Below are positions 11,516 through 21,959 of a DNA stretch of 33,792 nt, in pieces. The translations under genes and the position numbers were made by a program. This DNA is from an uncultured Bacteroidales bacterium (lineage in GTDB: Bacteria > Bacteroidota > Bacteroidia > Bacteroidales > Paludibacteraceae). Numbering within the stretch: position 1 is the stretch's first letter; every line of letters begins with the position of its first letter. Under the pieces are notes generated by a model. The model worked only from the letters and a program-made list of their open reading frames with translations. It had not been told where the DNA came from and did not search any database. The stretch lies in contig CADBZO010000023.1 of the NCBI GenBank assembly GCA_902799185.1, positions 1 through 33,792 of the forward strand, read 5' to 3'.

Positions 11516-12489
11516 CTACATCGTAGCCGTCAGGAAGGTAGCGTTGCCGAAGATGTAGAGAACATTTTCGGATGCAGGAACGAGGAGGGTCTCGCCTTGC
11601 TTGACATGAATGCCGTTGATATGCGCTTCACCCCACAGGCAAACGACCACCACAAAGGCATCCGTGTGCAGGTCAATCTCCGCCGCCACTTGCACCACAA
11701 CACGATTGACCGTGAAATAGGGGCAATGGATAAGTTCGGAGTTGGGTTTGGTAGAATCATAGGACGTGCGGTACTCCGGCCAGACCTGATAATCGATTGC
11801 CTCTTTGGCTTCGGCGATGTGCAGTTCGCGCGGGTTGCCATGCGCATCCTTGCGTCCGAAGTCATAGACGCGGTAGGTGATATCCGAAGTCTGTTGGATC
11901 TCTACAAGAAAATTACCCGCTCCGATGGCATGCAATCGTCCGGCAGGGAGGAAATAGAGGTCTCCTTGGTGGGACTCATGCGTAGCGATGACGTCCTGTA
12001 AACCCCTCCCGACCTCCCCACCAGGGGAGGAGACCAAGCGCTCGTAGTCATCGGGGGTAATGGATTTGCTGAGGCCGGAATAGATTTTGGCTCCGACATC
12101 CGCCTTGACGACATACCACATTTCTGTTTTGCCCGGGCATTTATGTCTTTTCTGCGCCATTTTGTCATCGGGATGCCTTGTACGGACAGATCCTGACGCG
12201 AATCAATGAACTTGACGAGCAGGGGGAACTGATTGCCGAACTTCTTATAGACGCGTTCGCCTACAAGGAGTCCTTTGTATTTGTCGATGAGCTGGGCGAG
12301 GTTGAGACCGAGATCCACATCGCCGATGATGCCGCGTTCAACTGCTATGGACTCATGTCCAGGTACGGCACTGATTTCCCACGATTCGCCGATATTCGGC
12401 TGCGCGGTATAAATGCCCTTGAAGGGCGCAATCTGATAGCCACCCCAGATGGTGGTCTTCAAATAAGGGGCAAACTTATAGGGTTTCAT
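11516..12489 (-). pseudogene. manA: Mannose-6-phosphate isomerase, frameshifted
   Basis: Type I phosphomannose isomerase, interconverting mannose-6-P and fructose-6-P. The first part runs MKPYKFAPYLKTTIWGGYQI...LLVKFIDSRQDLSVQ, then continues one frame over as HPDDKMAQKRHKCPGKTEMW, with the zinc-site His of the family's QVHPxD motif and GDLYFLPAGRLHAIGAG. One base is missing at 12176-12177 (CAAGGCATCCC where CAAGTGCATCCC would be expected). Restored, the protein is about 324 residues, the normal length. Residues near DDYERLVSSPGGEVGRGLQD carry a copy of the inserted palindromic repeat. Last gene of the mannan operon, where it would route released mannose to glycolysis. The frameshift may be real or a sequencing error. 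Confidence 0.85.
12001..12033 (-). repeat. Intragenic palindromic repeat, copy 1 (manA)
   Basis: CCTCCCC-ACCA-GGGGAGG (12013-12030) in a GC-rich block. The sense strand reads SSPGGEVGRG in the manA frame, an insertion relative to the usual isomerase loop. It is the most diverged full copy of the family. Confidence 0.6.
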
Positions 12490-12491
12490 TA

Positions 12492-12551
12492 TGAATTAAA
12501 AATTACGAATTACGAATTACGGATTACGAATTACGGATTACGAATTACGAA
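12492..12551. repeat. AATTACG tandem spacer repeat
   Basis: The gap between manA and the epimerase gene is nearly all AATTACG/GGATTACG units. Related units occur at 23409-23448 (AATTCGTAATTAGT) and 16562-16576. They look like slippage-prone intergenic spacer repeats. Confidence 0.85.
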
Positions 12552-13804
12552 TTTAGTCTTTCCATTATCTCAATACACATGCGGGAGTTGTGGTAGGGGC
12601 ATTTCCAGAAGCCGGCTTTGTCGTGGGTGCGGTCGGGGGTGCCGTCAGGGAGGACGGACCAGAACCACTCGCCGTTCTCGCGGTCTATCAAGCAGTTTTG
12701 GATATAAAGGAATGCTGTTTCTGCCAACTCAAGATTGATATTACTTTCTACAGGTTTTTCCCTTTGATACAGTTTCCATTGGTCGAGATATCCCACCACC
12801 GCCTCAGCAAAACACCACCATTCTTTCTCCTCCATAATGCCCTCTTCCGCTGCTTGCGCCAATGAATGAATGACCGGCAGGGTTTGATTCAGCAGCACCT
12901 CATCACCTAACACCTCCAATGCCTCATGCAGCAGCCATGCCGCTTCTATATCATGTCCGGGAGACACCTCACCCCGACCCTCTCCCAAGGAGAGGGAGGA
13001 AGAAAGGGGATGCCAGCTCTCATCGAAGAAGAGGAGAAGGTGTCCCGTTGCGGGGTCGAAGATGCGGGTTACGAAGATGTCAATAAGTGTACGGAGCTGG
13101 CGCTCTACCCTCTCCTTTGTACCTTGTACATCGTACATCGTACATCGTACATCGTCCCTTTGGACATTCTTTAAGACGCGGTAGAGATTCGTGTATGCTT
13201 CGAGCACATGGAGATGGGTGTTCATGGTGAAGACACCGTTCTCGTCTTTTTCGGAGAGACGCATGTCAGCTATCGGCTGCCAGTCGCGGTCAAGCGCTTC
13301 GAGATAACCAACCCCCTCCGACTCCCCCTCAAGGGGAGAGACATGGAACGCATGTGTCTCCAAATCCTCGAAGAGGCGGATGGCGGCATTGAGGGCTTCA
13401 CTATCTTGGGTAGCGCGATAGTACTCCGTCAGACCATATATGGCAAAAGCGATCGCATAGGTCTGCTTCTTGGTGTCCAGCGGGGTTCCATCGGCCTTGA
13501 GCGACCAATAGACACCACCTTGTTCGCGGTCTATAAACCGCTGCACGAGGTAGTCATAAGCTCTCGCTGCCAGTATGCGGTAAGGTGTATTATGCAGCAC
13601 ACGCGCCGCCGCAGAGAAAGTCCACAAGATACGCGCATTGAGCACGGCTCCTTTCTCCGCGTCCGGATGCAGTACATTATATCCGTCTATACGTCCGTAG
13701 AAACCACCTTGTTGGTAGTCCACCATCCGTTCCTGCCAGAAACGCAGGATATTGGTTTCGAGCAGGGCTTGCGCCTCGGCTCGAAGATTTATACATTTAC
13801 TCAT
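12545..13804 (-). CDS. Cellobiose/mannobiose 2-epimerase (AGE family)
   Basis: An (alpha/alpha)6-barrel epimerase of the N-acylglucosamine 2-epimerase family. Visible motifs are GGFYGRID, GGVYWSLKADG, GHDIEAAWLLHEA and the C-terminal GFWKCPYHNSRMC with conserved histidines. In mannan loci this enzyme converts beta-1,4-mannobiose to mannosyl-glucose, the substrate of the GH130 two genes upstream. The frame opens with GTG 13810, overlapping the transporter stop; ATG 13804 is equally likely and is used here. It carries three apparent insertions: HVSPLEGESEGVG (about 156-168 from the GTG), a peptide encoded by (CATCGTA)n near 219-230, and SLSLGEGRGEV (272-282). These make it slightly longer than the usual about 390-400 residues. 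Confidence 0.88.
   Translation of the reverse strand: MSKCINLRAEAQALLETNILRFWQERMVDYQQGGFYGRIDGYNVLHPDAEKGAVLNARILWTFSAAARVLHNTPYRILAARAYDYLVQRFIDREQGGVYWSLKADGTPLDTKKQTYAIAFAIYGLTEYYRATQDSEALNAAIRLFEDLETHAFHVSPLEGESEGVGYLEALDRDWQPIADMRLSEKDENGVFTMNTHLHVLEAYTNLYRVLKNVQRDDVRCTMYDVQGTKERVERQLRTLIDIFVTRIFDPATGHLLLFFDESWHPLSSSLSLGEGRGEVSPGHDIEAAWLLHEALEVLGDEVLLNQTLPVIHSLAQAAEEGIMEEKEWWCFAEAVVGYLDQWKLYQREKPVESNINLELAETAFLYIQNCLIDRENGEWFWSVLPDGTPDRTHDKAGFWKCPYHNSRMCIEIMERLNS
12967..13002 (-). repeat. Intragenic palindromic repeat, copy 2 (epimerase)
   Basis: Core hairpin CCCTCTCC-CAA-GGAGAGGG (12978-12996). The 32-bp stretch 12967-12998 is identical to 14424-14455 in the transporter gene. In the gene frame it reads SLSLGEGRGEV, just before the GHDIEAAW motif. 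Confidence 0.85.
13125..13156. repeat. (CATCGTA)n short tandem repeat inside epimerase gene
   Basis: GTACATC-type units repeat four times within the coding region and are translated as VRCTMYDVQG. The preceding CCTTTGTACCTTGTACATC belongs to the same low-complexity block. Such units are typical of spacers, not conserved protein sequence, so this looks like a coding-region invasion. Confidence 0.75.
13309..13342 (-). repeat. Intragenic palindromic repeat, copy 3 (epimerase)
   Basis: CTCCCC-CTCAA-GGGGAG (13322-13338) within a C-rich block. The sense strand reads SPLEGESEGVG in the gene frame, the same phase as the GEGRGEV copies but more diverged. Confidence 0.65.
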
Positions 13805-13806
13805 TT

Positions 13807-15255
13807 TCACATTTTTTCATTTCTTTGGATTTTGAGTTGGGCATCGATCTCTTTCATGCGTGCCGTAGTGAGGGGATAGAACGATACCACCAGCACGGCA
13901 ATGATACTCACCGCAGCCGGTATGAAGGACATCAGGCATCGGAGGCAGAGAAGCGCAGAGTCGGGCTGGGTGAAGGCTTCGCCTGTTTGAAGGTTTGAAA
14001 TTGTTTGAGGGTTTGAGATATATCCGCAGGCGGCGAGAAGCCACAGGGCAGCCGAACCGCCGATAGCACCGCCGAACTTCTGCGCCATGGAGGACGAGGA
14101 GAAGATGAGACCGGTGGAGGCTGTTTTGTATTTCTGCTCGGCATAGTCGGACACATCGGCGTACATCGACCACACCAGAGGAGACATCACGCCCGTAAGC
14201 ATGGAGATAAGTATCTGAGCGAGGAGCATGAGCCAGAAGCCGGTCTGCGAGACAGGAATGAAGAAGAACAGGACGGAGAGGATGCAGAGGGCGATATTGA
14301 CAGCAATAAAGGTTGTTTTCTTGCCAAACCGCGCCGCCAAAGGCACACAGAGCGCCACACCGATCATGTTAGATACTTCGCCTACAGCAAGGAAAAGACC
14401 CGCATAGAAGAGGAGTTGAAAGACCTCACCCCGACCCTCTCCCAAGGAGAGGGAGAGAGTAGCTCCTTCGGGGATGATGTCGGCGAAGTAGTAGGCTACG
14501 GTAGCACCGCGGACGGTACAGAAGAGATTAAAGCAAAGGGCTGCACCAATGAGTATCCACCAGGGTTTGTTGGAAAGCAGTGCCTTGAAATCCGAACCGA
14601 TGGAGACGGTGGAGACGGTCTTCAATTCCTCTTTCGTCAGCAGGAAACAGCAGATAAAAAGGACGAAACAGGCAGCCGCAATGACTACCATCGCCCAGAA
14701 CCAGCCCTGAGGCGTATTATAGCCGCCGAGGGCGTTGCAGAGCGGTTCCCAGAGAAAGAGCGCCAGGAATGAACCACCGTAAGCAAAGAACATGCGGAAG
14801 GACGAATAGACCGTTTTCTCCTGCGAGTCGGCAGTCATCACGCCAAGCATAGCCCCATAGGGCACGTTGATGCCCGTATAGACGGTCATCATGAGGATAT
14901 AGGTGGCGTACGCCCAGACAAGTTTGGCGGTGTACCCCCAGTCCGGCGTAGTGAAAAGCAAGATACCTGCGATGGAGAAGAGCGGCGCCACAAAGAGCAG
15001 GTACGGGCGGTACTTGCCCCAACGTGTCTGCGTACGGTCTGCCAGAATACCCATCATCGGGTCTGAGACAGCGTCCCATATACGCGTGACAAGCAGGATA
15101 ATACCTGCGTCCTTGAGCGAGAGGCCGAAGATATTACTATAGAAAAACGGCAGGTAATAGGAAAAGACTTTCCAGAACATCGACGAGGACATATCGCCGA
15201 AGCCATAACCGATGTGGCGAAGCCACTTGCTATTTACGATTTGGTCATTTACCAT
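13807..15255 (-). CDS. GPH-family sodium/sugar symporter
   Basis: A 482-residue, about 12-helix major-facilitator-type transporter of the glycoside-pentoside-hexuronide group. Motifs include GYGFGDMSSSMFW at the start, RIWDAVSDPMMGILADRT (58-75) and GKYRPYLL (80-87). It probably brings mannobiose or mannosyl-glucose from periplasm to cytoplasm. It lies 8 bp after GH130 and its stop overlaps the epimerase start region. Loop residues 266-279 (LSLSLGEGRGEVF) derive from a palindromic repeat. ISNPQTISNLQTGEAF near the C-terminus and the N-terminal MVNDQIVNSK derive from short AT-rich repeats. Confidence 0.9.
   Translation of the reverse strand: MVNDQIVNSKWLRHIGYGFGDMSSSMFWKVFSYYLPFFYSNIFGLSLKDAGIILLVTRIWDAVSDPMMGILADRTQTRWGKYRPYLLFVAPLFSIAGILLFTTPDWGYTAKLVWAYATYILMMTVYTGINVPYGAMLGVMTADSQEKTVYSSFRMFFAYGGSFLALFLWEPLCNALGGYNTPQGWFWAMVVIAAACFVLFICCFLLTKEELKTVSTVSIGSDFKALLSNKPWWILIGAALCFNLFCTVRGATVAYYFADIIPEGATLSLSLGEGRGEVFQLLFYAGLFLAVGEVSNMIGVALCVPLAARFGKKTTFIAVNIALCILSVLFFFIPVSQTGFWLMLLAQILISMLTGVMSPLVWSMYADVSDYAEQKYKTASTGLIFSSSSMAQKFGGAIGGSAALWLLAACGYISNPQTISNLQTGEAFTQPDSALLCLRCLMSFIPAAVSIIAVLVVSFYPLTTARMKEIDAQLKIQRNEKM
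14424..14460 (-). repeat. Intragenic palindromic repeat, copy 4 (transporter)
   Basis: A 32-bp stretch identical to copy 2, with hairpin CCCTCTCC-CAA-GGAGAGGG. It encodes SLSLGEGRGEV in a hydrophilic loop between membrane helices, a position tolerant of insertion. Confidence 0.85.
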
Positions 15256-15263
15256 TGGGTCAT

Positions 15264-16550
15264 TTATTTAGACATTGAGGCATTTTTTGCAACGAGGGCT
15301 TTGATCTTCTCCACGGAGGCGGAGGTGGTGAGTCCGTCTTCGGGAGTATGAAGGCAGTAGTCAAGAAGCTGCTCCACGGTAGTGGTGGCTACATGGAGCC
15401 GGGTATCTGCGGAGGCGTAGTAGATAAAGACCTTGCGAGTGTCCACCTCACCCCGACCCTCTCCCTTGAGGGGAGAGTTAGAGAGAGGTTTCTCCTCCAC
15501 TATCCAGCCGTTGGAGAAGGCGACGTTCATGACATCGCCGATATACTCATATCCTTCGGGCACAAGGAACCATCCGCTGGGTCGGGCAATGACACATGTG
15601 GGGTCATCCAGGGCGGTCATATACATATAAAGCACATAACGGAGCCCGGAAGCGGTGGCACGCACGCCGTGAGCAAGGTGGAGCCAGCCTTTGGCAGTCT
15701 TGATGGGTGCGGGGCCTTCGCCGTTCTTGACCTCATAGACGGTGTGATAGGCACGGGAGAAGATGATGCGTTCGTTGCGCACCTCGGCGTGGGTGATGTC
15801 GGGGGTAAGTGTCCAGCCTATTCCTCCGCCTTTGCCGGTCTCGATAAAACCGTCTTGCGGACGGGTGTAGAGGGCATAGCATTTACCCATTTTCTCATTT
15901 TCACATTTAACGAACTCCGGATGGAGGACGACATTACGCTGCTGGCAGAGCGATTTGAGGTCGTCGAGCCGTTCCCAGTGAATAAGGTCCTTTGTGCGGG
16001 CTATGCCTGCGGCAGCCGTTGCAGCAGATGTGTCGAATGGCTTCGTCTCATCATGCCGCTCGACACAGAAGATGCCGTATATCCATCCGTCCTCGTGGCG
16101 CGTGAGGCGCATATCATAGACGTTCGTTGCGGGTGCGTTATTGCCGTCGGGCATGGTGACGGGTTCCGGCCAGAAACGCCAGTTGTCGATGCCGTTAGGC
16201 GACTGGGCTACCGCGAAGAAGGATTTGCGGTCGGCTCCTTCCACACGTGCCACGACGGTGTATTTGCCCTCAAAGAGGATCGCTCCGGCATTGAGCACCG
16301 CGTTCATCATGATGCGCTGCATGAGGAAGGGGTTGTCTTGTTCATTGAAATCATAACGCCACTCCAACGGCGTGTGCTCCGCCGTGAGAATCGGGTATTT
16401 GTATTTGGTATAGATACCCGTCGAAAGTCGAAACGGGACAGAGCCTGTCGAAAGCCCATTTTCCGCCATCGGCTCATTGGGGCGGGTAAGGAGTGCTTCG
16501 TGTGCGGCACGGAGAGCCGCTACTTTATTTGACCAGAGTTCCATTTGCAT
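15264..16550 (-). CDS. GH130 4-O-beta-D-mannosyl-D-glucose phosphorylase
   Basis: A 428-residue five-bladed propeller enzyme of GH130 subfamily 1. It would phosphorolyse Man-beta-1,4-Glc to mannose-1-phosphate and glucose in the cytoplasm. Family hallmarks are GIYTKYKYPILTAEHTPLEW, NPFLMQRIMMNAVLNAGAI, and TNVYDMRLTRHEDGWIYG with the likely catalytic Asp146, plus the C-terminal FIYYASADTRLHVATTTVEQ and LLDYCLHTPEDG. ATG 16550 lies inside the last codons of the CE7 gene (26-bp overlap); ATG 16544 is an alternative. Three insertions stand out: GLSTGSVPFRLST (32-44), KCENEKMGKC (215-224) and LSNSPLKGEGRGEVD (356-370), all encoded by repeat DNA. Confidence 0.92.
   Translation of the reverse strand: MQMELWSNKVAALRAAHEALLTRPNEPMAENGLSTGSVPFRLSTGIYTKYKYPILTAEHTPLEWRYDFNEQDNPFLMQRIMMNAVLNAGAILFEGKYTVVARVEGADRKSFFAVAQSPNGIDNWRFWPEPVTMPDGNNAPATNVYDMRLTRHEDGWIYGIFCVERHDETKPFDTSAATAAAGIARTKDLIHWERLDDLKSLCQQRNVVLHPEFVKCENEKMGKCYALYTRPQDGFIETGKGGGIGWTLTPDITHAEVRNERIIFSRAYHTVYEVKNGEGPAPIKTAKGWLHLAHGVRATASGLRYVLYMYMTALDDPTCVIARPSGWFLVPEGYEYIGDVMNVAFSNGWIVEEKPLSNSPLKGEGRGEVDTRKVFIYYASADTRLHVATTTVEQLLDYCLHTPEDGLTTSASVEKIKALVAKNASMSK
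15446..15479 (-). repeat. Intragenic palindromic repeat, copy 5 (GH130)
   Basis: Hairpin CTCTCCC-TTGA-GGGGAGAG inside the same CCTCACCCCGACCCT frame as copies 2 and 4. It reads SPLKGEGRGEV and is followed directly by the conserved RKVFIYYAS strand. Confidence 0.85.
16417..16458 (-). repeat. GTCGAAAG repeat inserted in GH130 N-terminus
   Basis: Two GTCGAAAG copies and the inverted pair CCCGT/ACGGG lie between the codons for MAEN and GIYTKYKYP. The sense strand contains TTTCGACAGGCTCTGTCCC, a type of dispersed repeat I have seen in many bacterial genomes. It adds GLSTGSVPFRLST to the enzyme. Confidence 0.6.
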
Positions 16551-18681
16551 TGTATTTATTGTTATTACGAATTATGAATAATTGTCCATCCGAGAGGATT
16601 TTCTCATTTCCACATTTGGCTATCTTCTCATTTATCGTTTGGTCAATGGCCGTAGTGGTAGTTTGAATACGGGCGGCAAAGAACGCCATGAAATCGGTGT
16701 ACCACGAAGCGGCAGCCTGATGTCCCAGTTCGGGATTAAAGAGGAGCTGCTTGTCCGCGGAAAGAAGGTTGTTGTACGGCGCTATATTGGTATGCGGTGG
16801 GCAGACGTCGTCCTGCAGACCTCTACATGCAATCACCGGGCAAGAGATAGCGGTAGCGAGGTTCTTGGTATCAAAATACGAGAGGAAGGCAAAGAGTTCG
16901 TCATCGGTCATCGTACCTTGGTTCTCCCGCGCCACGTAGGCAGGCCAGTTGACGATATTGAAATAGTCGGGATAATCGCCCATGAAAGCGATGCCCGGTG
17001 CTATAGCGCGGAAGGTGTAGCCGGAGAGAGCCGCAGCCGCGTAAGTGAACGCGCCGCCCTGACTCTGCCCCTCGGCAAAGAGGTTCGTCATGTCCGAGGT
17101 AGGACGGGTAGCCATGAAACGGACCGCCTGCACGCAGTCCATGAACGCACCGCGGTAGTAATAGCTATCCTTGTCTCCGAACCGGTAGGCGAACCAGTCA
17201 CCGTAGGTGTTGGTGAAATCGCCCTTGCCGTCCGCCTCGCGTTCGGAGGAGAGGCGGTTGTTGATGTTTTGTCCGCGGGTGGAGAGGAAGAACTCGGCGT
17301 AGTCGGGTTCGGCATCTCCGGAGGGGCAATAGGGTTTGACATCCTGTCCGCCGGGGCGGTAGCCGGAGTCGTAACCGGCATAGTGCATGATGACGGGATG
17401 TTTCTTACCATCCTGCGGCTCGGCATAGTAGCCACGAATAACAACAGGGTTACCCGTCAGACCGTCGGGAATAGAGTTCATCTCCACGAGATAGATCTTG
17501 CGTGCCGCAGTGGATTTGGAGGTTATCTCCGTGAGCGTCGCGGACATGTTGACGGCCTCCAGTTGGGTCTTGGCGGCAGCCCAATAAGTAGCGAAGTCCG
17601 CTTGCTTGTCCGGGGCAGATATGATAGCAGTCGGGTTAATACCGAAGACGAAGGCACGGGCGAGGTCATCGTTGACGATGCAGGTTGCTTTATAGAAGCC
17701 CGGCGCCAAGTCTGTTTCGGTAGTCAGGGTAATGTTCTGCACGCCGGAAGCGGCTATCTCTACGGATGCAGTAAGGGTGGTGACGGGTGCCATTTGGTCA
17801 GTGGTTATCTCCACTTCCACAGCCGCCGTAACGGCCTCGGCGTAGGGGTTCTCGGCTTGGATGGTGATCGTCGGACGGGCGCTGAAGACCCAGTTGTCGG
17901 TCACGGGCACGGAGAGATTAAGCGTCTTGAGCGAAGCGGGGTTGAGGAGCAGTACCTCGGTCATGGTAAAGCCCAGACCGGAGAGGATCGTGCCATGGGT
18001 TTTCAGTTCCGCCAGCATCTTCGCCGTAATGGTAAAATCCTGATAGCGTCCGGAGAGGGAGACTATCTCCGTGTCGTCCATTACCTCCCAGTCAGAGCGA
18101 CCTATCTTGAGTTGTGCGCCCGCGCGCAGTTCTTTGAAGCGCACGCGGAGGAGTTGCCCTTCTTCGGCAGAAGCGAACTTGGCCGCGGGAATAGTCTCCC
18201 ACTCGCCCCAAGCAGCACCAAAATCTTTCTCACCGGACCAGATGGATTGGTTGGTTCCTGCTTCAGCAGGGGTATGGGTGAGGGTGATTTTAGAGGCGGT
18301 ATATCCCGCTCCTTTGACCACCAGTTGCTGACCTGCGGCAACGAGATCGAGCATCGTTTGAGTCAGGGTGATGGAAGCGGTAAGGGGAGCCTCTTTACCT
18401 GCCAGCTGAAAGTCATGCGGGTCGGTGAAATTGAGCCACTGCCACGAGGCATCTACGTATTGCAGAAAGACCTGAGGGTAGTCGATGTCCGCAATAGCGG
18501 TGACATAGACATTGACAGCGTCTCCAGCGGTAGCTCCCGCCAGAAGGGACTTGTCAATAGTGACATAAGTGGACCAGTTGTTGGCGCAGACGAAGGTCTC
18601 GGAGTGGAGGGTTGTCTCCGTCGCCGAAGCCAGGCAAAGGGACAAGGCGACAAAGTACAAAGTACAAAGGAGCTTTCTCAT
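16525..18681 (-). CDS. CE7 acetyl esterase with two N-terminal binding modules
   Basis: A 718-residue secreted enzyme; signal peptide 1-20. Residues about 22-137 and 146-247 are two copies of a beta-sandwich module (each ends G-GFT-TEVLLL-like). An Ig-like linker spans about 250-350, and the CE7 alpha/beta hydrolase covers about 355-672. The catalytic triad fits Ser540 (EGQSQGG), Asp624 (GLQDDVCPP) and His654 (LGHQ). CE7 enzymes deacetylate xylan or small sugars; here acetylated mannan is the likely substrate. The C-terminus (KILSDGQLFIIRNNNKYNA-NGTLVK) resembles that of the 818-aa surface protein and may be a sorting tail. INEKIAKCGNEKI before it is encoded by CATTT-rich repeats. Stop overlaps the GH130 start. 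Confidence 0.88.
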   Translation of the reverse strand: MRKLLCTLYFVALSLCLASATETTLHSETFVCANNWSTYVTIDKSLLAGATAGDAVNVYVTAIADIDYPQVFLQYVDASWQWLNFTDPHDFQLAGKEAPLTASITLTQTMLDLVAAGQQLVVKGAGYTASKITLTHTPAEAGTNQSIWSGEKDFGAAWGEWETIPAAKFASAEEGQLLRVRFKELRAGAQLKIGRSDWEVMDDTEIVSLSGRYQDFTITAKMLAELKTHGTILSGLGFTMTEVLLLNPASLKTLNLSVPVTDNWVFSARPTITIQAENPYAEAVTAAVEVEITTDQMAPVTTLTASVEIAASGVQNITLTTETDLAPGFYKATCIVNDDLARAFVFGINPTAIISAPDKQADFATYWAAAKTQLEAVNMSATLTEITSKSTAARKIYLVEMNSIPDGLTGNPVVIRGYYAEPQDGKKHPVIMHYAGYDSGYRPGGQDVKPYCPSGDAEPDYAEFFLSTRGQNINNRLSSEREADGKGDFTNTYGDWFAYRFGDKDSYYYRGAFMDCVQAVRFMATRPTSDMTNLFAEGQSQGGAFTYAAAALSGYTFRAIAPGIAFMGDYPDYFNIVNWPAYVARENQGTMTDDELFAFLSYFDTKNLATAISCPVIACRGLQDDVCPPHTNIAPYNNLLSADKQLLFNPELGHQAAASWYTDFMAFFAARIQTTTTAIDQTINEKIAKCGNEKILSDGQLFIIRNNNKYNANGTLVK

Positions 18682-18696
18682 TGTGAATCAATTTTG

Positions 18697-18712
18697 CCGG
18701 CATATATGCCGG
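18697..18712. repeat. Perfect 16-bp palindrome CCGGCATATATGCCGG
   Basis: Lies in the 45-bp gap between the GH26 stop and the CE7 start. Its CCGGCAT/ATGCCGG arms match the palindrome at 11386-11402. There is no T run, so it is more likely a processing or protein-binding site than a terminator. Confidence 0.6.
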
Positions 18713-18726
18713 TGGTTAAACGGAAG

Positions 18727-19803
18727 TTATAGTTGCCTCATGAAGGATCGGTAATCTTCCGCCTCCGCGGTGTTGGGTTGCGGGAGGAAATAATGGGTGG
18801 GTATATCCCAGGCGTTGCGCCAGACGAGGACATATTCGATGGCCGGATATTCGCGCAGGAGCGGCAGGAGGACGGTAGTGTACCAGTGAGGGCAACGGAG
18901 CGCCTCACAGCCGGTCTCGGTGAAAGCGAGACGTTTGCCGTGCTCCTTTGCCAGTCTTGCCGCAGCGTCCAGCTGGCGGTGGGCACGATAGAGATAGTCC
19001 TCTGAGCCTTTGGCTCCGCCGTGGTGGTAGCAGTCGGTGCCGATGATGTCCACGTATTCGTCGCCCGGGTACCACTCTTCGGTCTCGCGGTACGCCCCTT
19101 CGGGCGTATCTTCATAGAGCGTCAGTTTATCGGGAGAATAGGCAAAAAGTAATGTACAAGGGGACAATGTACCATGTACAAGGGATAATTGTTCATCCAT
19201 GACGGTACGTGTCCAACGCCAAAGGGCGATATAGTCGTCCGCCGAGCCGGCTTCGCGTCCCCACCAGAACCAGTTGCCGGACTGCTCATGCCAGAGACGT
19301 ACGATGAGTTGGTCAGGTTGGGTCTGGAGTGCAGCTACTTGCGCCACGAAAGCCGCAGCGCGTTCTATCCACACCTGCATGGTGTCATGCACGGCAGTAG
19401 AGGAATCGACGATTTGCGCAAGGCAGGGTGTGGTGTCCCACGAGTTACCGCCCGTGAGGGGGTTGCGGGCGTGCCAAGAGAGCGTCACTTTGCCGCCGCG
19501 TTCGAACTGACGGGCACACTCCTCTATCATGCGGGAGAACGGCACCGAGTCGAGGTTACGGGAGTGGTTCAGTTCGATGCCGCCTATATCAAAACCGATG
19601 AGGTCGGGCCATTCGCCGGTCAGATCATGGATGCAGGAACGGGTGTCAGTGTAGGTACTGTCCGCGAGGCGCTGCCAGTCGGAGCCATAAACCACATCAT
19701 CCTGGTGACCAAAAAGAACGGAATTGCTCTCTTGGCACGCGCAAAGGGCGCATGCCAAGAGGAGCAATATTTGAGATTTGAGATTTGACATTTGATATTT
19801 CAT
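18727..19803 (-). CDS. GH26 endo-beta-mannanase/mannobiohydrolase, lipoprotein
   Basis: A 358-residue retaining GH26 enzyme. The acid/base is Glu173 in RLWHEQSGNWFWWG, and the nucleophile Glu296 in FTETG. EEWYPGDEYVDIIGTDCYH is the usual strand-6 signature. The N-terminus (LLLLACALCAC, lipobox at Cys23) predicts a lipoprotein, periplasmic or surface-anchored. Its ATG overlaps the alpha-galactosidase stop (TAATG). Its first residues MKYQMSNLKSQ are encoded by a TGAGATTTGACATTTGATATTT-like spacer repeat, so the real start could be later. It differs from the second GH26 at 31516, so one may make oligosaccharides outside and the other mannobiose in the periplasm; this division is inference. Confidence 0.9.
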   Translation of the reverse strand: MKYQMSNLKSQILLLLACALCACQESNSVLFGHQDDVVYGSDWQRLADSTYTDTRSCIHDLTGEWPDLIGFDIGGIELNHSRNLDSVPFSRMIEECARQFERGGKVTLSWHARNPLTGGNSWDTTPCLAQIVDSSTAVHDTMQVWIERAAAFVAQVAALQTQPDQLIVRLWHEQSGNWFWWGREAGSADDYIALWRWTRTVMDEQLSLVHGTLSPCTLLFAYSPDKLTLYEDTPEGAYRETEEWYPGDEYVDIIGTDCYHHGGAKGSEDYLYRAHRQLDAAARLAKEHGKRLAFTETGCEALRCPHWYTTVLLPLLREYPAIEYVLVWRNAWDIPTHYFLPQPNTAEAEDYRSFMRQL

Positions 19804-21959
19804 TATTTCAACTCAAAGATTCGTGAGGGGTAATCGATATTATATTCTGTAGAGAGGGGGATATCCAGTCCGACAGACATGAGGTAGGCACCGGTGAAAG
19901 ACTTGCCGTCTAGGGCAGAGACCTCTCCCCGACCCTCCCCCAAGGGGAGGGAGTAAGGGGGTTGTACACGGACATTGCGTTCATGGAGCGTATAGGTGCG
20001 GTCGGGATCGAGACCTGCCAGACGGATGCGGCGGCTCGACTGCTTCATGAAGGATGATAGTCCGTAGGCGAAGAGAACGGCGTGGTCTTTGGTATCCGAG
20101 ACGTACATGAGGGAAGCGACGCGCTGCGCGGCAACCTCTCCCCGCCCCTCCCCACAAGGGAGGGAGTAAGGAGATACCAAGCGGTACAGGTTGCCGAGCT
20201 GGATGAGGGGGCGGAGTTCCTTATAATCCGCAAACGCGACGGTACACTGGGCGCGTTCCTCATCGGTCATGTGCGCCGGCTGGAGTTCCATGCCGAGACG
20301 ACCGGACATCGCCACATCACAACGGAACTTGATCGGGGTCGTGCGTCCGGTCATGAGGTAGGGAGAACCGCCAATGTGCTGCGCCATGGCGTTGGAGGGG
20401 AAGAAATACGAGGTGCCCCATTGGATATAGACGCGCTGGAGGGCGTCGTTGTTGTCCGACACCCAGAACTCGTCGAAATACGGCATCAGTCCGTAGTTAG
20501 CGCGTCCTCCGCCGGAGGCGCAGTTCTGGATGACCACGTTCGGGTACTTGGCGCGGATACGTTCGAGCGTCTTGACGAGACCAAGATGGTAGTCCACATA
20601 GAGATTGGATAACCTCTCCCCGGCCCTCCCCCAAAGGGAGGGAGAAAGGGATGCCAAGTAAGGTGAACCGCAGTTCTGGATAGAGGCGTTGGCGTCCCAT
20701 TTGATATAGGAGATTTCGGGGTTATTGGTGAGCAGCGTGTCCACCAGATTGAAGACAAAATCCTGCACCTTGGGGTTCGTCATATCCAGCACGAGCTGGG
20801 TGCCGCCTCTGCCAAGTTTGAGTTCGCGGTTGCGCTCCTGCAATACCCAGTCGGGATGCTTCTCGTAGAACTCGGAGAGCGTGTTAGTTGCTTCGGGTTC
20901 TATCCATATACCGAACTTGATGTGGCGAGCCTTGGCGGCATCGGTGAGGGCTTTCAGTCCGTTAGGCAGTTTGCGGGTATCGACCACCCAGTCGCCGAGG
21001 GCGGCATTGTCGCTGTTACGCTGGTACTTACCACCGAACCAACCGTCGTCCATGACAAACAGTTCTCCGCCGAAAGAGGCGATGTCGTTCATCATCGCGA
21101 GGATACGCTCCTCGGTGATGTCGAAATAGATTCCTTCCCAGGAATTGAGGAGGATGTCGCGGGTGGCATTGCCGTTATGAAGCATGCCGCAGGTGCGTGC
21201 CCAACGGTGGAAAGCGCGGCTGACACCGCCCATGCCTTCGTTCGACCATGTATAAGCCAGATGGGGCGTAGAGAAGACTTTTTTCGGTTCCAATACATAC
21301 TCGGACGCCATAGGGTCTATACCGGCATAGAAATGAAAACCTTTCTCGTCGGTAGCTGCAACACGGAGTTCGAAGTTACCGGACCAGCAGAGGGCAGCAC
21401 CGAGCACGCGTCCGTAGTTCTCTTGGGGTACGCCGTCCAACGCAATCATTACTTCGGGTGCGTCAAGGTGCGCATTGCGCGCGCCGTCGGAGTTACGGAT
21501 GCTTTTCACGCCGCGCGTGAGGGGTTCGACGGTAGGCACACCTTCCGCCGCCCAGTTACCGTGGAGATGCAGCAAGTACGGGTTGTCTCCCTCGATAGGC
21601 AGATAACCGCTGTCGTACCGCTGCAAGCGCACAGGTCTCTTCTCGGTATGAGAGATGTCGTACCATGTCTCGGTCATCTCCACCGCCTTCCATTGCCGCA
21701 CATGAATGGTCACATAGAACGGCTGCACCAGGTCTTTCGTTTTGATTACCGTTTCCGTATATTGCGGATTGTTGATGTAGGTTGTGTCCTGCGGTCTCAG
21801 TTGCAGACTCTGGTCGCCGTCGGCGTGCTGCACAAGGAGCGCCGGGAGATGGATATGGTCGATGTCACCAAAGGTGGGTAACAAGTCTATAGCATGCGAC
21901 TGTACGCCCGCCAGAAGGCAGGCGCACAGCGCAAGCAGCATGGTTCCTGTTCGTTTCAT
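19803..21959 (-). CDS. GH36 alpha-galactosidase, secreted
   Basis: A 718-residue protein with a signal peptide. The N-terminal beta-sandwich (to about 265) precedes the catalytic barrel (GGELFVMDDGWFGG; LGDWVVDTRKLPNGL; FGIWIEPEATN). The nucleophile Asp422 lies in YIKWDAN, and the acid/base Asp502 in VSDNNDALQR, with CASGGGR between. It would remove alpha-1,6-galactose from galactomannan. It is the first gene of the minus-strand mannan operon, with its own promoter 43 bp upstream. Three insertions interrupt conserved runs: about 436-449 (SLSPSLWGRAGER), 598-609 (YSLPCGEGRGEV) and 669-680 (YSLPLGEGRGEV). All come from palindromic repeats; the first is in a different reading frame. Confidence 0.92.
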   Translation of the reverse strand: MKRTGTMLLALCACLLAGVQSHAIDLLPTFGDIDHIHLPALLVQHADGDQSLQLRPQDTTYINNPQYTETVIKTKDLVQPFYVTIHVRQWKAVEMTETWYDISHTEKRPVRLQRYDSGYLPIEGDNPYLLHLHGNWAAEGVPTVEPLTRGVKSIRNSDGARNAHLDAPEVMIALDGVPQENYGRVLGAALCWSGNFELRVAATDEKGFHFYAGIDPMASEYVLEPKKVFSTPHLAYTWSNEGMGGVSRAFHRWARTCGMLHNGNATRDILLNSWEGIYFDITEERILAMMNDIASFGGELFVMDDGWFGGKYQRNSDNAALGDWVVDTRKLPNGLKALTDAAKARHIKFGIWIEPEATNTLSEFYEKHPDWVLQERNRELKLGRGGTQLVLDMTNPKVQDFVFNLVDTLLTNNPEISYIKWDANASIQNCGSPYLASLSPSLWGRAGERLSNLYVDYHLGLVKTLERIRAKYPNVVIQNCASGGGRANYGLMPYFDEFWVSDNNDALQRVYIQWGTSYFFPSNAMAQHIGGSPYLMTGRTTPIKFRCDVAMSGRLGMELQPAHMTDEERAQCTVAFADYKELRPLIQLGNLYRLVSPYSLPCGEGRGEVAAQRVASLMYVSDTKDHAVLFAYGLSSFMKQSSRRIRLAGLDPDRTYTLHERNVRVQPPYSLPLGEGRGEVSALDGKSFTGAYLMSVGLDIPLSTEYNIDYPSRIFELK
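19922..19957 (-). repeat. Intragenic palindromic repeat, copy 6 (alpha-galactosidase)
   Basis: CCCTCCCC-CAA-GGGGAGGG hairpin in a CCTCTCCCCG context, encoding YSLPLGEGRGEV just before ALDGKSFTGAYLMSVGL. Confidence 0.85.
20135..20171 (-). repeat. Intragenic palindromic repeat, copy 7 (alpha-galactosidase)
   Basis: Hairpin CCCTCCC/GGGAGGG in a CCTCTCCCCG context, encoding YSLPCGEGRGEV between LYRLVSP and the strand SLMYVS. Confidence 0.85.
20613..20650 (-). repeat. Intragenic palindromic repeat, copy 8 (alpha-galactosidase)
   Basis: Hairpin CCCTCCC/GGGAGGG in a CCTCTCCCCGG context. Here the gene frame reads SLSPSLWGRAGERLSN, while GEGRGEV occurs in another, unused frame. It interrupts the conserved GSPYL...SNLYVDYHLGL run. 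Confidence 0.85.

Follow-up and report, generated by a model that had tools for sequence, protein, structure and literature searches.

The window analysed here is a stretch of 33,792 nucleotides (GenBank assembly GCA_902799185.1, contig CADBZO010000023.1) from an uncultured Bacteroidales bacterium of the Paludibacteraceae, in which eight copies of a short palindromic repeat, with the build of a G/C-rich intrastrand triplex motif (TM), lie within five genes. Judged by gene families, the host genes make up one sugar-catabolic operon on the reverse strand, encoding mannose-6-phosphate isomerase (PMI; 11516..12489), an N-acylglucosamine 2-epimerase family protein (12545..13810), an MFS sugar transporter (MFS_2; 13807..15255), a GH130 phosphorylase (15264..16550) and a GH36 enzyme (melibiase; 19803..21959). 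A covariance model built from 17 copies, eight of them from the window, gave matches starting at 12000, 12965, 13309, 14422, 15444, 19920, 20133 and 20611, all on the forward strand, opposite to the genes, with two copies in the epimerase gene, three in the GH36 gene and one in each of the others. The sole extra match in the rest of the window was a reverse-strand echo of the copy first noted at 15446. A first-pass annotation of this DNA had described eight copies in five genes of one operon, all inside coding sequence and in one orientation, those noted at 12967 and 14424 being identical over 32 bp; all of this was confirmed by the model and by comparison of the copies. The number of copies also exceeds chance, as CCTCNCCCCGNCCCT with at most one mismatch occurred at 63 places in the genome, including the window, against 17 for the pattern read backward.

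Several TM subfamilies are set apart by the site of interruption in the C run, given here as numbers in brackets (G000 denotes the window genome; G-numbers are genomes and L-numbers loci). The copy in the PMI gene (12000..12038; interruption 3) is read as SSPGGEVGRG and is present in L119 and not in L118. In the epimerase gene, the copy at 12965..13003 (4,6) is read as SSSLSLGEGRGEV, directly before GHDIEAAW, and is shared with L118, with none in L119, L200, L202 and others, while that at 13309..13347 (2) is read as VSPLEGESEGVG in a loop which in other species holds other sequence or nothing. The MFS copy (14422..14460; 4,6) is read as TLSLSLGEGRGEV, where L118, L121 and L132 have a 7-bp AT-rich repeat by eye; the GH130 copy (15444..15482) is read as SPLKGEGRGEV in a loop that is empty in L119 and L121 and carries 7-bp repeats (by eye) in L118 and L132. 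The three GH36 copies (4) are read as YSLPLGEGRGEV (19920..19958, residues 669-680; a TM shared with G022), YSLPCGEGRGEV (20133..20171, residues 598-609) and, in the other frame, ASLSPSLWGRAGERL (20611..20649, residues 436-450). The PMI gene consists of two ORFs owing to a frameshift of 1 bp that lies upstream of its TM copy, the repeat being in frame with the C-terminal half; PMI is intact in relatives, and the frameshift is either an assembly error or a real lesion.

Comparison with same-genus orthologues of all five genes supported the proposal that the TM peptides are insertions and not conserved loops. Every window site lacked the TM in some relative, and for each of the five genes orthologues without a TM were found at one site or more. 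In a GH36 alignment of 33 rows, the row of the window was the only one with a TM-type peptide at any of the three sites, having one at each, and no row from another genus had any; this count omits L120 of the same genus, with SLPFRGVGGVR and a related hairpin at the first site, and G022, which is not in the alignment. For GH36, the search for the same peptides in other genera was thus negative, in line with the earlier claim of insertion. Outside the window, the hosts of 76 intragenic copies were searched against 26 relative loci, by which six sites were covered at ≥45% identity; all six comparable sites, each in G045, were without TM. At the TM site of its Mur ligase-racemase gene, G045 carries KVESQKSKVES, which resembles a 7-bp repeat. 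Mapping onto a predicted GH36 structure (mean predicted local distance difference test score, pLDDT, 78.7) placed the inserts in putative coil, three of the six low-confidence segments (pLDDT <50) being the inserts (440-450, 602-609 and 668-676).

On the G-rich strand the element is laid out as stem arm, short loop, stem arm, three bases and third block, CCCTCTCC-TTG-GGAGAGGG-TCG-GGGTGAGG. All eight window copies fold as a hairpin with pyrimidine/purine arms and a short loop. Judged by this layout, the element is a TM by build, comprising a hairpin, a 3-nt spacer and a putative mirror-repeat third strand in a unit of ~32-34 bp. Single-strand hairpin energies of the window copies were modestly better than those of shuffles (z -0.7 to -2.2), and hairpin strength alone is therefore no argument. 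When the stem was set by hairpin pairing with the 3-nt spacer and the interruption patterns were then compared, the third block had the pattern of the stem in 86/125 copies (not identical in 39/125), whereas 2000 shuffles averaged 24.1 such copies and never exceeded 39. Agreement of stem and third block was observed in nine registers, (4,6), (4), (3), (2,4), (4,6,9), (2), (5,7), (2,4,6) and (6,8), an outcome not easily accounted for unless the third block is constrained. The consensus of the Escherichia coli TM (TMECO; earlier PIT) is CCCTCNCCCN3-6GGGNGAGGGN3GGGNGAGGG[GTC] (Holder et al., 2015; PMC4666352). None of 124 copies fitted it with two or fewer substitutions, 22 did so with three and 82 with five, against zero shuffled copies; with arms shortened by one base and a loop of 2-6 nt, 33/124 copies fitted exactly.

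Contrary to the first-pass view that the repeat is concentrated in one catabolic operon, the covariance model found at least 149 TM matches (E≤1) in the 2.43-Mb genome, which is 86.7% complete. This figure is a lower bound, as scoring covered 150 of 870 candidates, and the list lacks a TM that was seen at LigA residue 75. The working set comprised 125 matches with E<1e-3, including the echo of the 15446 copy, which was dropped to leave 124 for the placement and consensus counts. The window operon is nevertheless the densest TM cluster, with eight copies in 8.65 kb, a number reached in 1/2000 random placements on one 2.43-Mb line; contig C17 is next, with seven copies within an equal span. In Rfam the only match was whalefall-1 on the 14422 copy; it scored 18.6 bits, below the gathering threshold of 37, and was taken as chance.

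Genes were called with a codon-usage finder trained in this analysis (coding fraction 0.76 of 402 kb). By these calls, 84 of the 124 TM copies were inside predicted genes, 8 over gene ends and 32 between genes, and 71 of the 84 lay in ORFs scoring ≥25. The opposite strand of the repeat had been considered unused, which holds for the window and not for the genome: translation runs along the C-rich strand in 49 intragenic copies (phase 0 giving the LTPTLSQGEG type) and along the other strand in 35 (phase 0 giving the SLSLGEGRGEV type). Insertion is in frame with a strong phase bias, the counts being 34/4/11 for same-strand copies (chi-square P 3e-7) and 22/3/10 for those on the opposite strand (P 4e-4). 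For the window copies, described in the first pass as seven in one frame and one in another, phase relative to the model start gives 5, 2 and 1, a split to which subfamily register shifts contribute. As a control, the palindrome CTCGGCATATATGCCGAG (28 places genome-wide) was called intragenic at 0 of the 23 places assessed out of 25 tried; two of these lie inside and one over the start of a Y1-transposase ORF that the finder missed, and with all three counted the comparison is 3/23 against 84/124 (Fisher P 1e-6). Outside the window there are 67 host ORFs, of which 30, mostly higher-scoring ones, were scanned with Pfam; 29 matched a family. The hosts included GyrB, LigA, RelA/SpoT, Glu/Gln-tRNA synthetase, SerRS, CysRS, HisRS, DXS, three Mur ligases, a Mur ligase-alanine racemase fusion, methylmalonyl-CoA mutase, FBPase, signal peptidase, an alpha-amylase/branching-enzyme type protein and a UPF0004 radical-SAM protein, among others.

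The loops that hold TMs are also filled by unrelated repeats. By eye, the loops of the window genes were empty in some species and in others contained either a TM or 7-bp AT-rich repeats, and 217 period-7 arrays were counted in the genome sample, 77 of them within predicted genes, at a low threshold that admits short arrays. Before a KILRDGQ-type C-terminal domain, putatively type IX secretion-like, a TM was present in 7 of 17 rows from a sample picked for TM matches, and a TGTACAA-type repeat in 4. LigA, found in 39/41 genomes, and HisRS, found in 37/41, were each aligned for 29 relatives. At LigA residue 75, G000 has a TM (net 39 bp) and its sister G050 nothing, and others have GGACAAA, TGTACAA, GGTTACG or AAAGTCG repeats; the loops at LigA 405 and HisRS 207 gave a similar picture. 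With loop states assigned by eye in 22, 22 and 24 species, the minimum number of changes for these three loops on a 24-species tree, of which 9/21 inner branches are weak, was 8 (LigA 75), 10 and 6, and the more distant species of the tree had mostly plain loops. Both flanks of 23/124 TM sites were located in 796 kb of G050, where, by eye, a TM or decayed TM was present at ~10, no repeat at ~8 and another repeat at ~5; at C5:70890 and C16:23473 the TM of G000 is matched by a 7-bp repeat, and at C20:1807 by a TM of a different subfamily. Repeats have been gained and lost repeatedly at identical codon positions. Insert boundaries at 8 of these 23 sites showed no consistent target duplication, and the native bases around the insert differed.

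Further repeats were observed. The epimerase gene contains an in-frame 7-bp tandem repeat at 13126..13155, which is shorter in L118 and L119 and absent in the other nine aligned relatives, and 7- and 8-bp tandem repeats lie at the gene junctions 12488-12553, 13794-13822, 18650-18669 and 19769-19800. Intergenic pairs of 7-bp arrays with complementary units, ~100 bp apart, were seen in L060, L061, L067, L068 and L048; perhaps they represent a small element with heptad ends. In HisRS (G002, L299) the loop appears to contain TM remnants flanking a different palindrome, suggestive of insertion of one repeat into another. In the window genome a Y1-type transposase was matched only once (L009:1075-2328; G000:C8, ~82577-83830); CTCGGCATATATGCCGAG lies upstream of this ORF, over its start and at two places within it, and the two likely form a pair of a repetitive extragenic palindromic (REP) sequence and a REP-associated tyrosine transposase (RAYT). 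GH36 of the window (19803-21959) is 91% identical to that of G045, against 74% for LigA and 78% for HisRS, and on these identities the operon may have moved between species.

At E≤1e-3, TM matches were present in 15/41 genomes, led by the window genome (125), G021 (51) and G018 (48); the remaining 22 same-genus genomes had 0-13 each, and G026, of another family, had 24. One copy was detected by the model in 209 kb of G045. An even sample across the order gave a TM match in 11/198 genomes, including the own genome, at E 1e-5, scoring being limited to 33 candidates in each genome. Named relatives with ≥70% GH36 identity number six and are uncultured Bacteroidales metagenome-assembled genomes and one such genome of the Paludibacteraceae.

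TMs have been reported in >260 genomes and are always intergenic in E. coli MG1655, which has 23 copies (PMC4666352). The element studied here shares with the E. coli TM the CCCTCNCCC/GGGNGAGGG-type hairpin, the 3-nt spacer, a third block repeating the purine arm and many dispersed copies for which no linked mobile element was found; it differs in departing from the exact consensus, in a stem mostly one base shorter, in register-shifted subfamilies with a co-shifting third block and in location, 84/124 copies being inside genes and in frame, a difference of habit and not of build. The likeness to Rickettsia palindromic elements (RPEs) suggested in the first pass holds for the mode of insertion, as palindromic repeats lie in frame in unrelated genes and are absent from orthologues (PMC10969869, PMC3733652). 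Kinship is unsupported: compared by description only, the present repeats differ in phylum, in the third-strand block of their G/C-rich TM build and in sharing loops with unrelated repeats. A review describes RPEs of ~150 bp, but RPE-4 and RPE-6 are short CGTC-type REPs (PMC10969869, PMC3733652). The GTAG/CGTC REPs (Di Nocera et al., 2013; PMC3733652) are likewise palindromes of 20-40 bp, some intragenic and with DNA-repair genes among the hosts, and the CGTC type is without a linked transposase. Their tag variants include TGTC and CCTC, and part of the TM copies have, by eye, a CCTC end, a CGTC variant in that report. CGTC stems almost always start with A/T pairs, whereas TM stems start with C/G (by eye), and most REPs are intergenic and differ from the TM by its third-strand block; according to a 2025 survey, REPs by definition seldom overlap protein-coding regions (PMC12306157). 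Beggiatoaceae TAACTGA heptanucleotide repeats resemble the 7-bp arrays as multicopy direct repeats, but are intergenic by the title of the report (PMC4679880), compared with 77/217 arrays in predicted genes here, at the low threshold used. The TM itself and the in-frame insertion of palindromes in Rickettsia and by some REPs are already known (PMC3733652, PMC10969869). Among the matches listed in literature searches, with preprints and most subscription papers outside the scope, there were no TMs inside genes at such a scale and no loop sharing with unrelated repeats in Bacteroidales, and nothing relevant on heptamer repeats.

We consider it probable that TM numbers rose, within one Bacteroidales genus and in some of its species, through copying that also places the element in genes, followed by a filter on loop and frame. 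The survivors would be those copies that leave the reading frame intact and fall in a surface loop or linker, the rest being purged. Unrelated 7-bp tandem repeats would pass the same filter, and a permissive loop would be emptied and refilled by whichever repeat family is active. A selective filter as the proposed cause of TM placement fits the data well. For entry, we tentatively favour insertion templated while a stalled or broken fork is being repaired, because gains often seem to replace a few native codons, no linked transposase was found and structurally unrelated repeats share sites. It is quite possible, though less likely than not, that surface loops and interdomain linkers of housekeeping proteins in this genus act as a standing landing pad, in which short repeats of unrelated structure, namely the TM, several 7-bp tandem repeats and other hairpins, would arrive, displace each other and depart at the same codon positions by a common DNA process with no dedicated transposase.

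Several points weigh against this account of the element and its placement. The agreement of third block and stem (86/125) is inflated, as the shuffle ignores kinship within subfamilies; no copy meets the exact E. coli consensus, the stem being mostly one base shorter; and oligonucleotides of the E. coli TM reportedly formed triplexes in vitro, with none reported in vivo even for E. coli (PMC4666352). Of the intragenic calls, 13/84 score <25 and all rest on a home-made codon-usage finder. The intragenic share is weaker in same-genus relatives (28/51 high-scoring copies) and is 0/6 in G026 of the other family (Fisher P 0.02 for the two). Low pLDDT at the GH36 inserts is also expected from the few alignment rows that fill those columns. 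A filter and a DNA-level hot spot look the same in the sequence alone, and neither a target duplication nor a source copy was found, which leaves room for transposition in trans.

The best surviving alternative is that the TM is a miniature transposon, of the RPE or REP kind, moved in trans by an HUH or other transposase and landing in genes randomly. Genome-wide dispersal, copy numbers from 0 to 125 across species and the similar behaviour of RPEs and GTAG REPs would agree with this, as would the coincidence in G026 of 24 TMs with the most Y1 matches (six). We nevertheless regard it as rather unlikely: the sole Y1 match of the window genome, at its 86.7% completeness, is flanked and interrupted by CTCGGCATATATGCCGAG and not by TM, 0/8 examined Y1 loci of other genomes (of 28 listed) carry TM, and in G002, with its 13 TMs, no Y1 match was found. 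A RAYT as TM mover is accordingly unsupported by the genome's own Y1 gene and the eight further loci, a weak test, as G018 and G021, both rich in TMs, were not part of the Y1 search.

A single old insertion in each loop, with one repeat family later converted into another in place, would also put TMs and 7-bp repeats at the same codon position in different species, and would suit the sites at which G050 has a TM of another subfamily, such as C20:1807. This seems unlikely too, and somewhat more so, given that native loops are interspersed with filled ones on the tree (LigA 75 requires at least 7 changes when scored as filled or empty only, with several inner branches weak) and that the unrelated repeats have no common sequence through which conversion could act. 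That the peptides are kept for their usefulness, as flexible linkers or secretion-signal spacers, could be read from the strong phase bias and from the recurrent linker use before the KILRDGQ-type domain (7/17 rows of the sample picked for TM matches). It is improbable, however, as both strands and several frames are read, 4/17 of those linkers have a TGTACAA-type repeat instead and close relatives do without. The reading of the peptides as ordinary conserved loops of enzyme families is rejected for the tested sites and has next to no probability, in view of the single GH36 row in 33 per site and the six of six further sites without TM in G045.

The loops described here provide a natural insertion series in housekeeping enzymes, in which empty, TM-filled and 7-bp-repeat-filled forms of one loop occur across related species. 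They make the spread of TMs, the neutral filling of loops by repeat DNA and the operation of one process on unrelated repeats testable questions. Such indels, for example those in LigA and HisRS, are poor markers of descent.

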